A program made the translations under genes and the position numbers. From Candidatus Bathyarchaeota archaeon A05DMB-3 (GTDB lineage Archaea; Thermoproteota; Bathyarchaeia; Bathyarchaeales; Bathycorpusculaceae), in NCBI GenBank assembly GCA_019685555.1, contig JABFQN010000012.1, positions 1-46,320 on the forward strand: DNA of 46,320 nucleotides, read 5' to 3'. Under the pieces are notes generated by a model. The model was not told where the DNA came from, ran no database searches, and worked only from the letters and a program-made list of their open reading frames with translations. Numbering within the stretch: position 1 is the first letter of the stretch; every line of letters begins with the position of its first letter. Shown here piece by piece: positions 20,127 to 45,199 of the stretch.

Positions 20127-20636
20127 TTAAACTATGTAATTTCGGTCTGCCTTCTCAAAGTCTTTAACAATTTCCAAAACACGCCTAGAAGAACCAATTC
20201 TGTCAAGGGGCAACTCTTTCAACAAAACCCACGGACTGCTTCTTGCAATAGCCGTCACTAAGTGTTCTTCGCCGAAGCATTCCCTTGCAACATGATAAAC
20301 CAGCTGTCTAACCTTCAACTCTGAAAAATATCCAAGAGCGTGAAGATACTCATGGAGAAGAAGGTTATAGACCAAAGCGTTAACAACTCGCTTGGAGTTT
20401 GTGGAAGCTTCCACAGCCCGAACAAGAACCTTATTCAATATAATGTTGTTTGTTCCAATGGGGTGGTAGGCGCCCAACTGTATGGGCAAATCGTCTAAGA
20501 AAAGCATCATGCCAGCTCTGCGCTGGCTAAGGGCGAAAGCCACAGTGTCTTTAACAATCTCCCAAATCTCACCATAGCTTGAAGCCTTCTCAAGCCTCAA
20601 ACGGTAATTTTCACTGTTTGCCTCTGCATCTGCCAT
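20127..20636 (-). CDS. HExxH-motif protein, putative zinc-dependent hydrolase
   Basis: This is a 169-aa soluble protein without a recognised family name. NLLLHEYLHALGY contains HExxH (His95, Glu96, His99), the classic zinc-peptidase core, within a hydrophobic helix. NNIILNKVLVRA precedes it, as in minimal gluzincin-type folds with a strand before the active-site helix. A third metal ligand is not obvious; Glu or His downstream (for example RECFGEEHLV) are candidates. The preserved motif supports a metalloprotease or a metal-binding descendant of one. It lies in a two-gene unit with the amidotransferase. Confidence 0.7.
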   Translation of the reverse strand: MADAEANSENYRLRLEKASSYGEIWEIVKDTVAFALSQRRAGMMLFLDDLPIQLGAYHPIGTNNIILNKVLVRAVEASTNSKRVVNALVYNLLLHEYLHALGYFSELKVRQLVYHVARECFGEEHLVTAIARSSPWVLLKELPLDRIGSSRRVLEIVKDFEKADRNYIV

Positions 20637-20673
20637 TCTTTTTCGCCTTCGCCAAGCTATAGACTTTGTAAAA

Positions 20674-20683
20674 CATAAATAAT
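20674..20683 (+). promoter_or_regulatory. TATA box for the C/D box RNA
   Basis: CATAAATAAT is centred about 25 bases before position 20703, which is where the terminal stem of the predicted guide RNA begins. This matches the usual archaeal distance from TATA centre to transcription start. Confidence 0.5.
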
Positions 20684-20702
20684 TTGTTGCGTCTACTCCT
20701 TA

Positions 20703-20765
20703 TTGGACGATGAGGAGATCGAGGTACAATGAGTTGATGATTGCTTTTTCCGCTTCTGAGTCCAA
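20703..20765 (+). ncRNA. C/D box guide sRNA, predicted to target 23S C2498
   Basis: A six-base terminal stem, TTGGAC (20703-20708) with GTCCAA (20760-20765), encloses box C ATGAGGA (20710-20716; one mismatch to RUGAUGA), a 12-nt guide (20717-20728), a D'-like ATGA (20729-20732), a C'-like TTGATGA (20734-20740), a 15-nt second guide (20741-20755) and box D CTGA (20756-20759). The D' guide contains ATCGAGGT(A), complementary to the highly conserved ACCUCGAU of the 23S peptidyl-transferase centre. The base pairing with the fifth nucleotide before D' is C2498 (E. coli numbering), a site known to carry 2'-O-methylation. A TATA box stands at the right distance upstream. The second guide's target was not identified. 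Confidence 0.75.
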
Positions 20766-20788
20766 AATGCTAAATGCTTACAAATGCT
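20765..20788 (+). repeat. Three copies of AAATGCT
   Basis: AAATGCT occurs at 20765-20771, 20772-20778 and 20782-20788, directly behind the guide RNA. The first two are contiguous and the third is offset by three bases. A hairpin ACCCTTT-TTG-AAAGGGT follows at 20799-20815. Role unknown; it may belong to the sRNA 3' processing/termination region or to the end of the opposite-strand gene. Confidence 0.4.
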
Positions 20789-20837
20789 CCGCTACGAAAC
20801 CCTTTTTGAAAGGGTAAAAAGGATGGATTAGGCAGCG

Positions 20838-21059
20838 TTAGGTTTCTGATGGTCCGGTGATGTATGCCCATATGCTTACAAGGATTAGCGTCAGAAAGGC
20901 GCCTGCAAGTCCTGAAAGCATGTATCTTGTGAACACGCCTAACGATGGCAGCAGCGCTATCAATGCTGGAATCACGTAGGTGGCTGTTATGTCGGCTATG
21001 ATGCCAGCGAAGAATCCGAGAAGTGCTACGAAGGCGAAAACCTTTAACCTTTCACCCAT
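20838..21059 (-). CDS. Small two-helix membrane protein
   Basis: ATG 21059 gives a 73-aa product; it has SD AGGTGG five bases upstream. A GTG three codons earlier is the alternative. Two hydrophobic segments are seen: VFAFVALLGFFAGIIADITA and MLSGLAGAFLTLILVSIWAY. No family is recognised. It is divergent from the cdv operon across a 230-bp region, so shared regulation with cell division is conceivable but unproven. Confidence 0.65.
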   Translation of the reverse strand: MGERLKVFAFVALLGFFAGIIADITATYVIPALIALLPSLGVFTRYMLSGLAGAFLTLILVSIWAYITGPSET

Positions 21060-21074
21060 TTTTTCCACCTAGCC

Positions 21075-21286: not shown

Positions 21287-21949
21287 TTGTCAGAAAGATT
21301 TAGTAAAAGATGGGAGGAGAGACGCGACGAGCAACCCTTCACTGAACGCATCAAGGAAGCCGTGAGACCTCCAGGTCCTTTGAAGCCAAGGCTTGACATA
21401 GCTGTCCGCCGCATAGAGTTGCAAATCCAGAAGCTTGACCAGGCAGGTGAAAGGTTCAGCCAAAGAGACAAGTCGATATTTGCAAGGATAGTTGACGCTT
21501 ACACAAAGCATGACATGGCACGGGCAAACGTTTTCGCCAACGAACTAGCCGAAATTAGGAAAATGGAAAAGATGATAATGCAGGCTCGGCTGGCTCTTGA
21601 ACAAATTGTCTTAAGGTTACGCACTGTATCAGAACTTGGAGACGTAGTTTCAACCCTCGGTCCAGCAGTAAGCGTGCTCAGAGCGGTTAAAACTGGAATG
21701 GCCAACATTTTCCCAGAGGCGGAGAGGGAGTTGGGGCAGATAGGCAATTTGCTAAGCGGAATAATAGTGGAGGCTGGACAGAGCACAGGGTTATCCATAA
21801 ACTTTGAAACAGCCAACGAAGACGCCCAGAAAATCCTAACAGAAGCAGCTGCAGTTGCTGAACAGAAGATTAAGGAGAAGTTTCCAGAACTTCCAGCTGG
21901 AATACCCCAAGTGCCTTTACCTGAAAAATCTCCGACAGAAACATCTTAG
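21287..21949 (+). CDS. ESCRT-III-like protein, CdvB paralogue without winged helix
   Basis: This is a 220-aa Snf7/ESCRT-III family protein of the archaeal Cdv division machinery, expected to polymerise at the membrane neck. It starts at TTG 21287 with SD GGAGG (21274-21278). The basic N-terminal helix hairpin (RLDIAVRRIELQIQKLDQAG, then NVFANELAEIRKMEKMI and LEQIVLRLRTVSELGDVV) aligns well with the second ESCRT-III gene two genes downstream. The C-terminal tail KFPELPAGIPQVPLPEK resembles a MIM2 motif that docks on the MIT domain of CdvC/Vps4. It lacks the winged-helix tail needed to bind CdvA, as in Sulfolobus CdvB1/B2. It is the first gene of the operon. Confidence 0.9.
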   Translation: MSERFSKRWEERRDEQPFTERIKEAVRPPGPLKPRLDIAVRRIELQIQKLDQAGERFSQRDKSIFARIVDAYTKHDMARANVFANELAEIRKMEKMIMQARLALEQIVLRLRTVSELGDVVSTLGPAVSVLRAVKTGMANIFPEAERELGQIGNLLSGIIVEAGQSTGLSINFETANEDAQKILTEAAAVAEQKIKEKFPELPAGIPQVPLPEKSPTETS

Positions 21950-21966
21950 CAAAGGGAGGAATACAT

Positions 21967-22686
21967 ATGCAACAAGACCCCAATATTTTTTTGTCCATAG
22001 GGAAAACTGTTAAAGACGAGTATGGACGAGCAATAGGCGAAATTGCATCCTTCGCCGTCAAACCCAACGGTGGAGTGGACCATGTTTACATTAGGCATGC
22101 TGACGGACGTTTCATGAAATACCCTGCTGGAAGCATAAAAGTTGAAGGTTCAGAAGTAATTTATCTGTCAAACATAAAATATGAAACAGCACTCTTTTGC
22201 GACCAGATTCCACTAATATGGCGTAAAGACCAAGCTCTGAAAGAGCTTTTAGAAAAGAGGAAGATTTCCCAAGAAGTCTACGAAGATTTGCACAGCAGCT
22301 TTGAGGGAGCCCTGAATCAGTTGAAAACGGAGGCTCAAACTCTGCTGGAGAAGATTGACAAGGAGATTGAAAGGTGCAGCAACGAGATTAAAGAGTTGAA
22401 CTATGCCTTAGTTCACTTGGAAGTGGAGCATGAAATAGGGGAAATTGGCGAGCAGTCTTATAATATGGCTTTTTCGGCAATACAGGAATGTTTGAAGAGG
22501 GCTAATTCGGAAAAGGCGGATCTTGAAGGTGTAAGAAATAAGCTTTCAAACATTCTTCTAGGAGAAACTCCAAGTAAAGCGGCTGTCGAGGAAACTGTTG
22601 AAGAAGCCCCAGCTCCCACGTCTCCAAGTCTTCCAGAGCCCCCCGTTGTAGTTTACGTGAAAGAAGCAGACGAATCCAACATTTAA
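21967..22686 (+). CDS. cdvA: CdvA, membrane-recruiting cell-division protein
   Basis: CdvA recruits ESCRT-III to the division site. The N-terminal PRC-barrel-like domain (FLSIGKTVKDEYGRAIGEIASF and HVYIRHADGRFMKYP, residues 10-60) is followed by a long helical/coiled-coil region (about 80-195). An acidic, proline-rich linker ends in LPEPPVVVYVKEAD, which fits the E3B peptide that binds the winged helix of CdvB. Length 239 aa is typical. ATG 21967 has the strong SD GGGAGGA. It sits 17 bp after the CdvB paralogue and ahead of CdvB. Confidence 0.93.
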   Translation: MQQDPNIFLSIGKTVKDEYGRAIGEIASFAVKPNGGVDHVYIRHADGRFMKYPAGSIKVEGSEVIYLSNIKYETALFCDQIPLIWRKDQALKELLEKRKISQEVYEDLHSSFEGALNQLKTEAQTLLEKIDKEIERCSNEIKELNYALVHLEVEHEIGEIGEQSYNMAFSAIQECLKRANSEKADLEGVRNKLSNILLGETPSKAAVEETVEEAPAPTSPSLPEPPVVVYVKEADESNI

Positions 22687-22707
22687 GCTTCTACGAGCGT
22701 AGCGGGC

Positions 22708-22712
22708 GGAGG
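22708..22712 (+). promoter_or_regulatory. Shine-Dalgarno that points to a non-AUG start of cdvB
   Basis: GGAGG at 22708-22712 lies eight bases before ATA 22721. No ATG, GTG or TTG in the cdvB frame occurs between the upstream in-frame TAG (22700-22702) and GTG 22808, which lies 95 bases downstream of this site. Confidence 0.7.
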
Positions 22713-22720
22713 GAGCTAAA

Positions 22721-23617
22721 ATAAAGAATCCTTTCGCGGCATCCCCTCCACCACTACGAGAAGTTATAACCAAATCAGTTTATAAGCTGAGAATCCAGCA
22801 GCAAAGAGTGGTTCAAGCATCTTTAAGGCTTAAGGAAAGAGACAAACGCTTATTCCAAACATGTGTGACAGCGCTGAAAGCCAACAATAAGGAGAGAGCC
22901 GCCATATGTGCAAACGAACTGGCGGAGGTCCGCAAATTAATCAGCTTTCTCCAGCAAGTGGAACTTGCCATTGAAAGGGTTATCCTCCGCCTTGAAACAA
23001 TGAAAGAGTTAAGCGACATAGTTATAGACCTAAAACCTGCATTAAAAACCCTTCAAAGCGTTTCGAAACAACTTTTCGAAATTATGCCAGAAGTTTCGTC
23101 GGAAATAAGCGAAATCAACGACGTCATAGGAGAGACAATCTATTCTACAAGGATGTCTGCCGAGAACGTGGTGATTCCAGTTGACAGAGTTACGCCAGCC
23201 GGAGAGCAAATCTTAGATGAAGTCTCAAGCTTCTTGGAAAAAAGGTTGGCTGAAAAGCTTCCGGAGCCGCCCGCTACGCAGGAAGCGCCAAAAGTGAAAC
23301 AGGCGGAGACCCATATTAAACAGATGGTTGCCTTAGCTGCGGCATGTTCCCAGACTGTAGGCGGAGAAACCGTTGAAGAGAAAGAAAACCGTTCTGAAAA
23401 CCTAATTTCTTTTAGAAAGGCTGAGATTCAAGAGATTTCGCTTAAGGTTGGAAAACCCTCGCTTGAGGAAGCCCTTCTAGAATATGTGAGAAAAAGCGGT
23501 GGAGAAATTGACCTTATGCGTTGTTCCCGCGAGTTGGGCGCTTCGTATGAGGAGGTTGAGAAGGCTCTGCAGAATCTGGGAGCAAAGGGTAAAATAAAGA
23601 TTGAAGCTAGAAGGTGA
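22721..23617 (+). CDS. cdvB: CdvB, ESCRT-III protein with winged-helix tail
   Basis: This is the CdvB-type ESCRT-III protein. The Snf7 core (SPPPLREVITKSVYKLRIQQ, then ICANELAEVRKLISFLQQ and ERVILRLETMKELSDI) aligns with the paralogue upstream. KLPEPPA may be MIM2-like. The C-terminal 50 residues (SLEEALLEYVRKSGGEIDLM, then LGASYEEVEKALQNLGAKGK) form the winged helix that binds CdvA. The Snf7 homology begins well before GTG 22808, so that codon would truncate helix 1. The best start is ATA 22721 (298 aa), eight bases after GGAGG; a sequencing error is the alternative. CdvC follows closely. Confidence 0.88.
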   Translation: MKNPFAASPPPLREVITKSVYKLRIQQQRVVQASLRLKERDKRLFQTCVTALKANNKERAAICANELAEVRKLISFLQQVELAIERVILRLETMKELSDIVIDLKPALKTLQSVSKQLFEIMPEVSSEISEINDVIGETIYSTRMSAENVVIPVDRVTPAGEQILDEVSSFLEKRLAEKLPEPPATQEAPKVKQAETHIKQMVALAAACSQTVGGETVEEKENRSENLISFRKAEIQEISLKVGKPSLEEALLEYVRKSGGEIDLMRCSRELGASYEEVEKALQNLGAKGKIKIEARR

Positions 23618-23624
23618 AGCCTTC

Positions 23625-24791
23625 ATGGAAGCATCCCAAGAACTTGAAAAATCTGCAACAAACTATGCCTTAGAAGCCGTTCGCCTCGACAAGCAAGGCG
23701 CGAAGGGCATGGCAATAACCATGTACCAGAAAGCTATAGAGACCCTCTTAAAACTTGTTCAGCTTTACCCAGAATACAGCCTAAACAAAGTTTACATCCA
23801 AAGAGCCATAGCCTACCAAGAAAGAATAAAAGTGCTGCAAGGAGCCGTGGCCCCCATAGAACCCCAAACAGAACCAAAAGGCACTGAAAGCGCAAAACCC
23901 GGCGAAGAAAGGAAAGCCAGCTACGAAGACTTAATCGTAAAGGAAAAGCCAAACGTGAGATGGGAAGAAGTAATAGGACTTGACACTGCAAAAAGGGCAA
24001 TAAAAGAGGCTATAATCTATCCTGTTCAAAGACCAGACCTGTTCCCATTAGGTTGGCCTAGGGGCATACTGCTTTTCGGACCGCCAGGATGTGGAAAAAC
24101 TTTGTTGGCTGCTGCTGCCGCAACAGAAATTGATGCAGTTTTTATTTCTGTTGATGCCGCTTCTGTAATGTCTAAATGGTTGGGTGAGGCGGAGCAGAAT
24201 GTTGCTAGGCTTTTTGGTTCTGCCCGGAAATCCGCTGTAGAAGATAAGAAACCAGCCATAATTTTCATCGATGAGTTGGACTCCCTCATGGGAAAACATT
24301 CCAACGAGGTGGGCGGAGAAGTCCGCGTGCGAAACCAGTTCCTAAAGGAGATGGACGGCATAATCGACAAGGGTAAAAATCTCCACGTTTATGTTATTGG
24401 CGCCACAAACAAGCCTTGGGATTTAGACTGGCCTTTCATTAGACGTTTCCAGAAACGCATCCTCGTTCCTCTTCCAGATCATCATGCCCGCTTAATGATG
24501 TTTAAACATTATACGAGTAATCTGGTTTTGGCTCCAGACGTTGACTTACACGAGTTGGCTAGGCTTTCTGAAGGATTCTCTGGAAGCGACATCAAAGATG
24601 TTTGTCAAGCAGCCCACCTGAAGGTTATAGGAGAATTCTTTGAGTCTGGTCAAGCCACCAACAAGCTTGCTAAGCCTAGGTCTCTGAGGATGAGTGATTT
24701 TAGGCAAATCCTCGAAGAGAGAAAGCCCAGTGTTTCCCTTGACATGCTATCCCTTTACAACCGCTGGTTTGAAGCCTTCAAAGCCCTTTAA
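23625..24791 (+). CDS. cdvC: CdvC, Vps4-type AAA ATPase
   Basis: CdvC is the AAA+ ATPase that disassembles ESCRT-III filaments. The N-terminal MIT domain (residues 1-75: SATNYALEAVRLDKQGAKGM, AITMYQKAIETLLKLVQLYP) recognises MIM motifs of the CdvB proteins. The AAA core shows Walker A GPPGCGKT (152-159), the pore loop MSKWLGEAEQN and Walker B IIFIDELDS. The C-terminal Vps4 helix is seen in SLDMLSLYNRWFEAF. ATG 23625 is chosen over TTG 23601 because AGGTGAA precedes it and the MIT domain starts there. It is the last gene of the operon. Confidence 0.96.
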   Translation: MEASQELEKSATNYALEAVRLDKQGAKGMAITMYQKAIETLLKLVQLYPEYSLNKVYIQRAIAYQERIKVLQGAVAPIEPQTEPKGTESAKPGEERKASYEDLIVKEKPNVRWEEVIGLDTAKRAIKEAIIYPVQRPDLFPLGWPRGILLFGPPGCGKTLLAAAAATEIDAVFISVDAASVMSKWLGEAEQNVARLFGSARKSAVEDKKPAIIFIDELDSLMGKHSNEVGGEVRVRNQFLKEMDGIIDKGKNLHVYVIGATNKPWDLDWPFIRRFQKRILVPLPDHHARLMMFKHYTSNLVLAPDVDLHELARLSEGFSGSDIKDVCQAAHLKVIGEFFESGQATNKLAKPRSLRMSDFRQILEERKPSVSLDMLSLYNRWFEAFKAL

Positions 24792-44541: not shown

Positions 44542-45078
44542 TTAAAGGAACATTTTAAGCAGTTTGCTCTCGTGCAGTAAGAATATTATGTAAACACTTA
44601 TGGCAAGCTCCGGCAGTATGTAGCTTCCATTGTATATGGCTGAATAAACTATTGGACTCATTCCTTCTGGAGCGTAACTAGCGAAGAAAATTACACCGGA
44701 AAGGAAATGCGCTATGAAACGACCCCAAATCCCAACATTAACTCCTACAAAGGGGCGGTTGCGGAAAAATCCAGCTAGTCCAAGGGCGCCGAAAGCTAAA
44801 GGGTAGTCGAGAAGCACCTGCAATGGATGAACTATAAACGGTTCAACGGCAAGCTGTACAAGGCCATAAACCACCGCAGCAAATAGACCGATTTTCGGTC
44901 CTCGTCTCAAAGCCAGCCACAAAATGGGAATCATGGAACCAGCAGTTATGGAACCTCCTTGAGGCAAGCTGAACACCTTAATGTAGCTTAAAGCCGTTGC
45001 AAGAGCTACAAACGTAACAACTTCAGCTATTATCTTGGTTTGAGAACTAACCTTAGGCTCTAAACTTTTTTCATTCAT
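44542..45078 (-). CDS. thiT: ThiT-like ECF transporter S-component
   Basis: This is a 178-aa membrane protein with six hydrophobic segments. TALSYIKVFSLPQGGSITAG and MIPILWLALRRGPKIGL match the thiamin-binding ThiT family (the LPQGGS motif is characteristic), and YPLAFGALGLAGFF fits the later helix. A TPP riboswitch directly upstream independently supports thiamin as substrate. ATG 45078 is chosen because the riboswitch's GGAGGG (45086-45091, minus strand) lies seven bases upstream; an ATG further upstream lies inside the aptamer. No energising ECF subunits are nearby. Confidence 0.93.
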   Translation of the reverse strand: MNEKSLEPKVSSQTKIIAEVVTFVALATALSYIKVFSLPQGGSITAGSMIPILWLALRRGPKIGLFAAVVYGLVQLAVEPFIVHPLQVLLDYPLAFGALGLAGFFRNRPFVGVNVGIWGRFIAHFLSGVIFFASYAPEGMSPIVYSAIYNGSYILPELAISVYIIFLLHESKLLKMFL

Positions 45079-45176
45079 GGTTTTTCCCTCCGCCGGCATT
45101 ATCCGGATCAGGTTCTAGGGGTCGACGGCGCTTAGCCGTCCTCTCAGCCGGGTCACCGCCCAACTCCCCCAAACCC
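45079..45176 (-). promoter_or_regulatory. TPP riboswitch (THI element)
   Basis: Read on the minus strand, the element contains the conserved CTGAGA, then ACCTGATCCGGATAATGCCG and GCGGAGGGA, the diagnostic TPP aptamer core. GGGTTT (5') and AAAACC (3') can form P1, GGGG/CCCC P2, and GGG-CGGTGA-CCC P3, with an extra hairpin GACGGC-TAAGC-GCCGTC between the halves. The 3' conserved GGAGGG is also the SD for thiT, so ligand binding would block translation initiation. Confidence 0.93.
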
Positions 45177-45199
45177 TTGAGCAAGGTAATGTTGTCTTG

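Follow-up and report, generated by a model that had tools for sequence, protein, structure and literature searches.

Archaeal double-guide box C/D small RNAs (sRNAs), of which PMC4644070 gives a pan-archaeal set and PMC7994747 a review, are organised around a kink-turn stem and the boxes C, D', C' and D, with one guide beside D' and another beside D, each selecting its target nucleotide by the +5 rule. Domain V of the 23S rRNA is a hotspot of such guides, and strands that are distant in sequence but close in structure are paired by one sRNA. A promoter of its own is reported for a minority of archaeal C/D sRNAs (PMC7994747). The yeast C/D snoRNA snR190 is a Dbp7-dependent chaperone that acts without methylation and whose box A can pair with a stretch inside H73 (PMC8536666). 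In bacteria, C2498 of the 23S rRNA is methylated by the stand-alone protein enzyme RlmM, for which Table 1 of PMC11542601 gives no archaeal or eukaryotic counterpart at this position.

The element reported here lies in a 46,320-nt stretch of DNA from Candidatus Bathyarchaeota archaeon A05DMB-3 (the window, i.e., the whole stretch analysed). It shares with the archaeal double-guide sRNAs both their architecture and, judged by the complementarity of its guides, their preference for domain V and for distant but structurally close strands. It has the canonical form of an archaeal box C/D sRNA, is preceded by a BRE/TATA promoter and is composed as follows (labels starting with G, C, L and f denote genomes, contigs, loci and families):

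about 20670-20682, + strand: BRE (AAAAC) and TATA box (ATAAATAA), the sRNA gene's own promoter, by sequence and conservation in 58 relatives
20703-20765, + strand: box C/D sRNA, full element of about 63 nt, by sequence
20703-20708, + strand: 5' strand of the terminal stem (TTGGAC), perfect 6-bp inverted repeat with 20760-20765
20710-20716, + strand: box C (ATGAGGA), one mismatch to RTGATGA, position 5 being G, not U
20717-20728, + strand: D' guide, core AUCGAGGUAC at 20718-20727, fifth base G20724
20729-20732, + strand: box D' (ATGA, D'-like), by sequence
20734-20740, + strand: box C' (TTGATGA), K-loop type, 1 nt past D', by sequence
20741-20755, + strand: D guide, pairing part CUUUUUCCGCU at 20744-20754, fifth base C20751
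20756-20759, + strand: box D (CTGA), perfect, by sequence
20760-20765, + strand: 3' strand of the terminal stem (GTCCAA), pairs with 20703-20708

Read from 5' to 3', the order of elements is TTGGAC-G-ATGAGGA-GATCGAGGTACA-ATGA-G-TTGATGA-TTGCTTTTTCCGCTT-CTGA-GTCCAA. The boxes C and D beside the 6-bp stem, with the spacing of a 3-nt bulge, are able to form the kink-turn that marks C/D membership, and the internal C'/D' motif is present in the window as ATGA ... TTGATGA. Spacers of archaeal C/D sRNAs usually measure about 12 nt; here, the C-to-D' spacer has 12 nt and the C'-to-D spacer 15 nt, the latter being mostly 15-16 nt in relatives. This excess over the usual length is a point against the double-guide explanation given below. 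The element differs from other archaeal sRNAs in that position 5 of box C is mostly not U, and in having its own promoter, which is placed about 25 nt upstream of the terminal stem. It is intergenic between two minus-strand ORFs (20127-20636 and 20838-21068). The initial annotation of this DNA had listed the 6-bp stem, a box C with one mismatch, D'/C'-like boxes, a perfect box D and a TATA box about 25 bases ahead of the stem; each was found in its place, the TATA box together with a BRE and conserved in relatives.

It had also judged chance unlikely, given the convergence of structure, promoter and target register. When both strands were scanned by rule, requiring a box C with no more than one mismatch, D', C', a perfect D and a stem of 4 bp or longer, 20703-20765 was the sole C/D-like element in the 46-kb window, and none was found in 60 first-order Markov windows. 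Rfam matches over the sRNA interval (E up to 10) all belong to C/D snoRNA/sRNA families on the same strand and interval, among them the sub-gathering matches snoU54 (E=0.0034), sR20, sR47 and sR44; at gathering score, no C/D family matches the sRNA. Membership in snoU54 (RF01277) was rejected, given 24.9 bits compared to a gathering score of 35. The likeness covers the boxes alone, i.e., the box C neighbourhood GAUGAGGAGAU and box D, while the D' guide of the sRNA does not match snoU54.

To what extent the element is kept in relatives was assessed at several scales. BLASTN of positions 20640-20840 gave matches in 59 of 101 relatives, with alignments mostly limited to about 20703-20767 (query positions ~64-128), i.e., to the RNA itself, and conservation drops steeply at both sRNA ends. 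A covariance model places the sRNA in 83/91 genomes of the window's own family and in 106/257 genomes of the class (E up to 0.001), the latter count including a few weak and probably chance matches. Beyond the own family, the sRNA extends to some other families of the order: about 14 matches in f9 are clear, further matches lie in f2 and f3, f6 contributes a single genome, and f17 two genomes with diverged sequences. On the phylum scale, two strong matches outside the class were found, both in family f32, i.e., Brockarchaeota sequences. A pattern scan of named genomes yielded the sRNA in Candidatus Bathyarchaeota and two Brockarchaeota, with 43 loci showing the full stem-box architecture; some 30 bacterial or Woesearchaeota pattern matches have neither boxes nor stem and were discarded as chance. 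The initial annotation had proposed a covariance search and had made its claim depend on boxes and guide being kept in relatives, which they widely are.

Within an alignment of 53 relatives, the stem strands GGAC (5') and GTCC (3') are invariant (53/53), and invariant blocks comprise ATCGAGGTAC, GGAC, ATGA and GAGTCC. The same holds for G3, A4 and G6 of box C and for C, G and A of box D. Box C mainly takes the forms ATGAGGA, ATGAAGA and ATGAGGT, with ATGATGA in 2/53, and box D is CTGA in 44/53 and CCGA in 9/53 relatives. For box D', many relatives show degenerate forms (AAGA, TGGA, AGTA and others), GA alone being nearly invariant. While the D'-C' segment varies freely in length from near zero to more than 30 nt, both guides are invariant or nearly so. 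With regard to covariation, A at position 5 of box C occurs only with U at position 2 of box D, and G with U or C; this is suggestive, but it includes no two-sided pair change, and most stem pairs are invariant, so it was not accepted. In the promoter of 58 relatives, A is found at -33/-32 in 50/57, positions -28 to -23 are A/T-rich and the flanks are almost uninformative, i.e., BRE and TATA box are conserved in register with the 5' end of the sRNA. Guides of archaeal C/D sRNAs usually turn over rapidly, whereas here the whole sequence including the stem is kept across several families. The sRNA gene is genuine and strongly conserved in Bathyarchaeota.

A chance match or a non-RNA element, e.g., a conserved DNA regulatory site between the flanking genes, would be in line with the intergenic position between two minus-strand genes and with a neighbourhood that is syntenic in many relatives. 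For 32 of the 43 named loci, the sRNA stands beside a homologue of the 76-aa ORF or an ESCRT-III (CdvB-like) gene, so the locus is orthologous there; several others, including both Brockarchaeota, are without these neighbours within the stretch examined. However, 11/43 loci carry the sRNA without the flanking genes, and the conservation pattern fits a C/D RNA and not DNA flanks. Taken with the empty random windows, this leaves a DNA element or chance with a practically negligible probability.

An LSU rRNA covariance search of the host genome gave no match, i.e., its assembly does not contain a 23S gene, and the targets were therefore checked in the 23S rRNA of relatives. These regions were taken after a search for a peptidyl-transferase centre (PTC) pattern, the pattern matches in G032, G002 and G048 being dropped as they are not 23S. 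All 23S positions follow E. coli numbering by alignment to rrlB. The D' guide core is identical in 53/53 aligned relatives. Its pairing with G2495-U2504 comprises 10 Watson-Crick pairs, such that G20724 at the fifth position faces C2498. This site had been proposed initially by the fifth-nucleotide rule, and it stands, given the right register in the relatives' 23S and the invariant guide. The pairing itself had been given too short: the true match extends over 10 bp because position 2496 is U in the archaeal 23S and C in that of E. coli. Shuffled D' guides match as well in 0-6 of 300 cases. Based on this complementarity, the D' guide probably directs 2'-O-methylation of C2498. In two diverged loci (L222 and L223 of G202 and G203), the D' guide has the sequence AUCGAGAUAC, so that the base facing C2498, the fifth of the guide, is A; a test for a compensatory change found no 23S match in either genome.

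The target of the second guide, left open by the initial annotation, can now be assigned to A2048-G2058 in helix 73 of domain V, a site that recurs across genomes. Here, 11 pairs are formed including one G-U at G2053, and the fifth base C20751 faces G2051. The guide core CTTTT(T/C)CCGCT is nearly invariant in the 53 aligned relatives. Opposite G2053 they carry U or C, both of which pair; the C variant, which gives a G-C pair, is found in f9 members and in a small number of further genomes (e.g., G029). Both the sRNA and a 23S gene are present in 13 genomes, and in these the two guides each match 23S best at this same site in +5 register, the sole tie being the D guide in G008 with an equal second 23S site. 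The D guide is T-rich, and shuffled versions match as well in 0-121 of 300 cases, depending on the genome. Since shuffled guides are often equal in a single genome, the assignment rests on the recurrence across genomes; it leans also on the nearness to the D' target in the PTC. Read in this way, the D guide probably predicts Gm2051.

The same statistics bear on the question whether the 23S matches are incidental and the true targets of the C/D sRNA are others (tRNA, 16S rRNA, mRNA). When a guide is T-rich and only one genome is considered, a 10-11 nt match within 3 kb of rRNA would be no rare event, and the systematic guide scan covered 23S rRNA. Against this, both guides reach the same core in canonical register in 13/13 genomes (with the one tie), and paralogues and siblings keep the C2498 guide while swapping the second one, which in two sibling types leads to another domain V segment. 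We thus consider other true targets very unlikely.

The siblings are weak covariance matches elsewhere in the phylum, i.e., C/D-like RNAs whose C2498 guide is identical or similar, while the second guide differs. In G338, G579 and G266, the latter is GTTATCCCCG, complementary to 2443-2452; in G292 and G285 it is GGCTGCAGTA(T/G), complementary to ~2074-2084 with one mismatch in bathyarchaeal 23S. These guides were judged by eye and by target search, for which one bathyarchaeal 23S and that of E. coli served in place of the siblings' own. The pattern suggests a modular design in which the C2498 guide stays constant and the second one, also directed at domain V, is exchanged. The loci L262, L264, L265, L266 and L267 are sibling C/D-like RNAs sharing the C2498 D' guide. 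G096 holds three copies of the sRNA (L219-L221), two of which keep the D' guide but carry a new D guide (TCTGTACCCCC), and L227, L230 and L235 show a degenerate second copy shortly downstream.

As for partner proteins, genes for fibrillarin (E=9e-97) and Nop5 (E=1e-79) are adjacent in the host genome (G000:C18:65690-66373 and 66468-67145). We propose a double-guide mechanism in which the sRNA would be transcribed independently as an RNA of about 63 nt, on whose C/D and C'/D' motifs L7Ae, Nop5 and fibrillarin would assemble. By sequence complementarity, the D' guide would bind G2495-U2504 and the D guide A2048-G2058, i.e., two strands of the peptidyl-transferase core in domain V, and fibrillarin would 2'-O-methylate C2498 and G2051 as the bases opposite the fifth guide nucleotides. 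Since about 450 nt of sequence separate the two targets, which are nevertheless close in the folded core, binding would hold this core open and may order the folding of domain V. For this explanation as a whole, i.e., transcription, RNP assembly, dual pairing, methylation and a possible folding role, we estimate a probability of about 0.82 from the sequence data.

A related reading gives the C/D RNP, similar to snR190, the main task of chaperoning rRNA folding at the peptidyl-transferase centre; one or both sites would then be methylated little or not at all. Two distant strands of one structural core are paired, the pairing guides are the most conserved parts while the boxes D' and C' drift, and a chaperone role has already been proposed for archaeal double-guide C/D RNAs (PMC4644070). 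Yeast snR190, itself a non-methylating chaperone, pairs with the same helix-73 strand (PMC8536666). Like snR190, the sRNA has two antisense elements to distant rRNA segments, one of them (here the D guide) directed at helix 73 of domain V, where it pairs with the 5' strand, and a C'/D' motif that is diverged in many relatives. The likeness has its limits: box A of snR190 is upstream of D' and predicted for G2395, while the helix-73 guide here is upstream of D, and box B of snR190 pairs with domain I, while the partner of the other guide here is 2495-2504, i.e., part of domain V. The site G2395 we take to be two nucleotides 3' of the G2051 site. The degenerate D' box in many relatives makes a chaperone role on the C2498 side possible and could mean weak or absent catalysis there. 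However, a catalytic guide is expected to keep its boxes C and D, its kink-turn stem and the +5 register, and here all of these are preserved; archaeal fibrillarin RNPs normally methylate, and chaperoning need not exclude methylation. A chaperone role is thus a live alternative or addition to methylation, whereas its being the main function is unlikely. A wider version, which we regard as tentative and somewhat doubtful, combines these observations: a slowly evolving archaeal C/D RNA would clamp helix 73 and 2495-2504 and chaperone domain V folding as a functional counterpart of eukaryotic snR190, being one of several Thermoproteota C/D RNAs with a C2498 guide and an interchangeable second domain V guide.

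The text portions searched in PMC4644070 and PMC7994747 mention neither C2498 nor G2051, and our literature search, based on article text, found no archaeal guide for either position. Such guides might already have been predicted in other archaea; as far as searched, the sRNA is an undescribed, unusually stable member of a well-known RNA class. The same search found no published C/D sRNA set for Bathyarchaeota, and our survey yields a covariance model of this family, which Rfam does not contain. If the double-guide reading is true, the ribose of the very nucleotide that the protein RlmM methylates in bacteria would be methylated via an RNA guide in Bathyarchaeota, i.e., there would be two unrelated solutions at one nucleotide of the catalytic centre. 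Furthermore, the dual PTC pairing and the snR190 parallel make the idea of a C/D chaperone of domain V folding testable in archaea.

The variable D'-C' segment forms a hairpin in relatives, with 93/117 cells paired in register compared to 24-54 when slid. In many of them (e.g., L196, L195, L212, L252), a 3-bp D'-C' hairpin abuts GA/GATGA without the usual 3-nt kink-turn bulge, and its pairs change among relatives (CGC/GCG, CTC/GAG, CCC/GGG, CAC/GTG). A subgroup (L043-L046, L049, L052, L055-L057) shares a conserved D'-C' insert of ~25-30 nt (GGCTGAAGGCGGGGAATTTAAGCTGGA...).

Beside the sRNA, the window holds an ESCRT/Cdv cluster (21287-24791, + strand) encoding a Snf7-family ESCRT-III protein, a CdvA-like coiled coil, a second Snf7-family protein and a Vps4-like AAA ATPase; the sRNA is linked to this cluster in many bathyarchaeal genomes. 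Further features of the window are a TPP riboswitch above the Rfam gathering score (45067-45180, - strand) as well as tRNA-Ser(GCT) at 7-93 and tRNA-Asp(GTC) at 154-231, both on the + strand.
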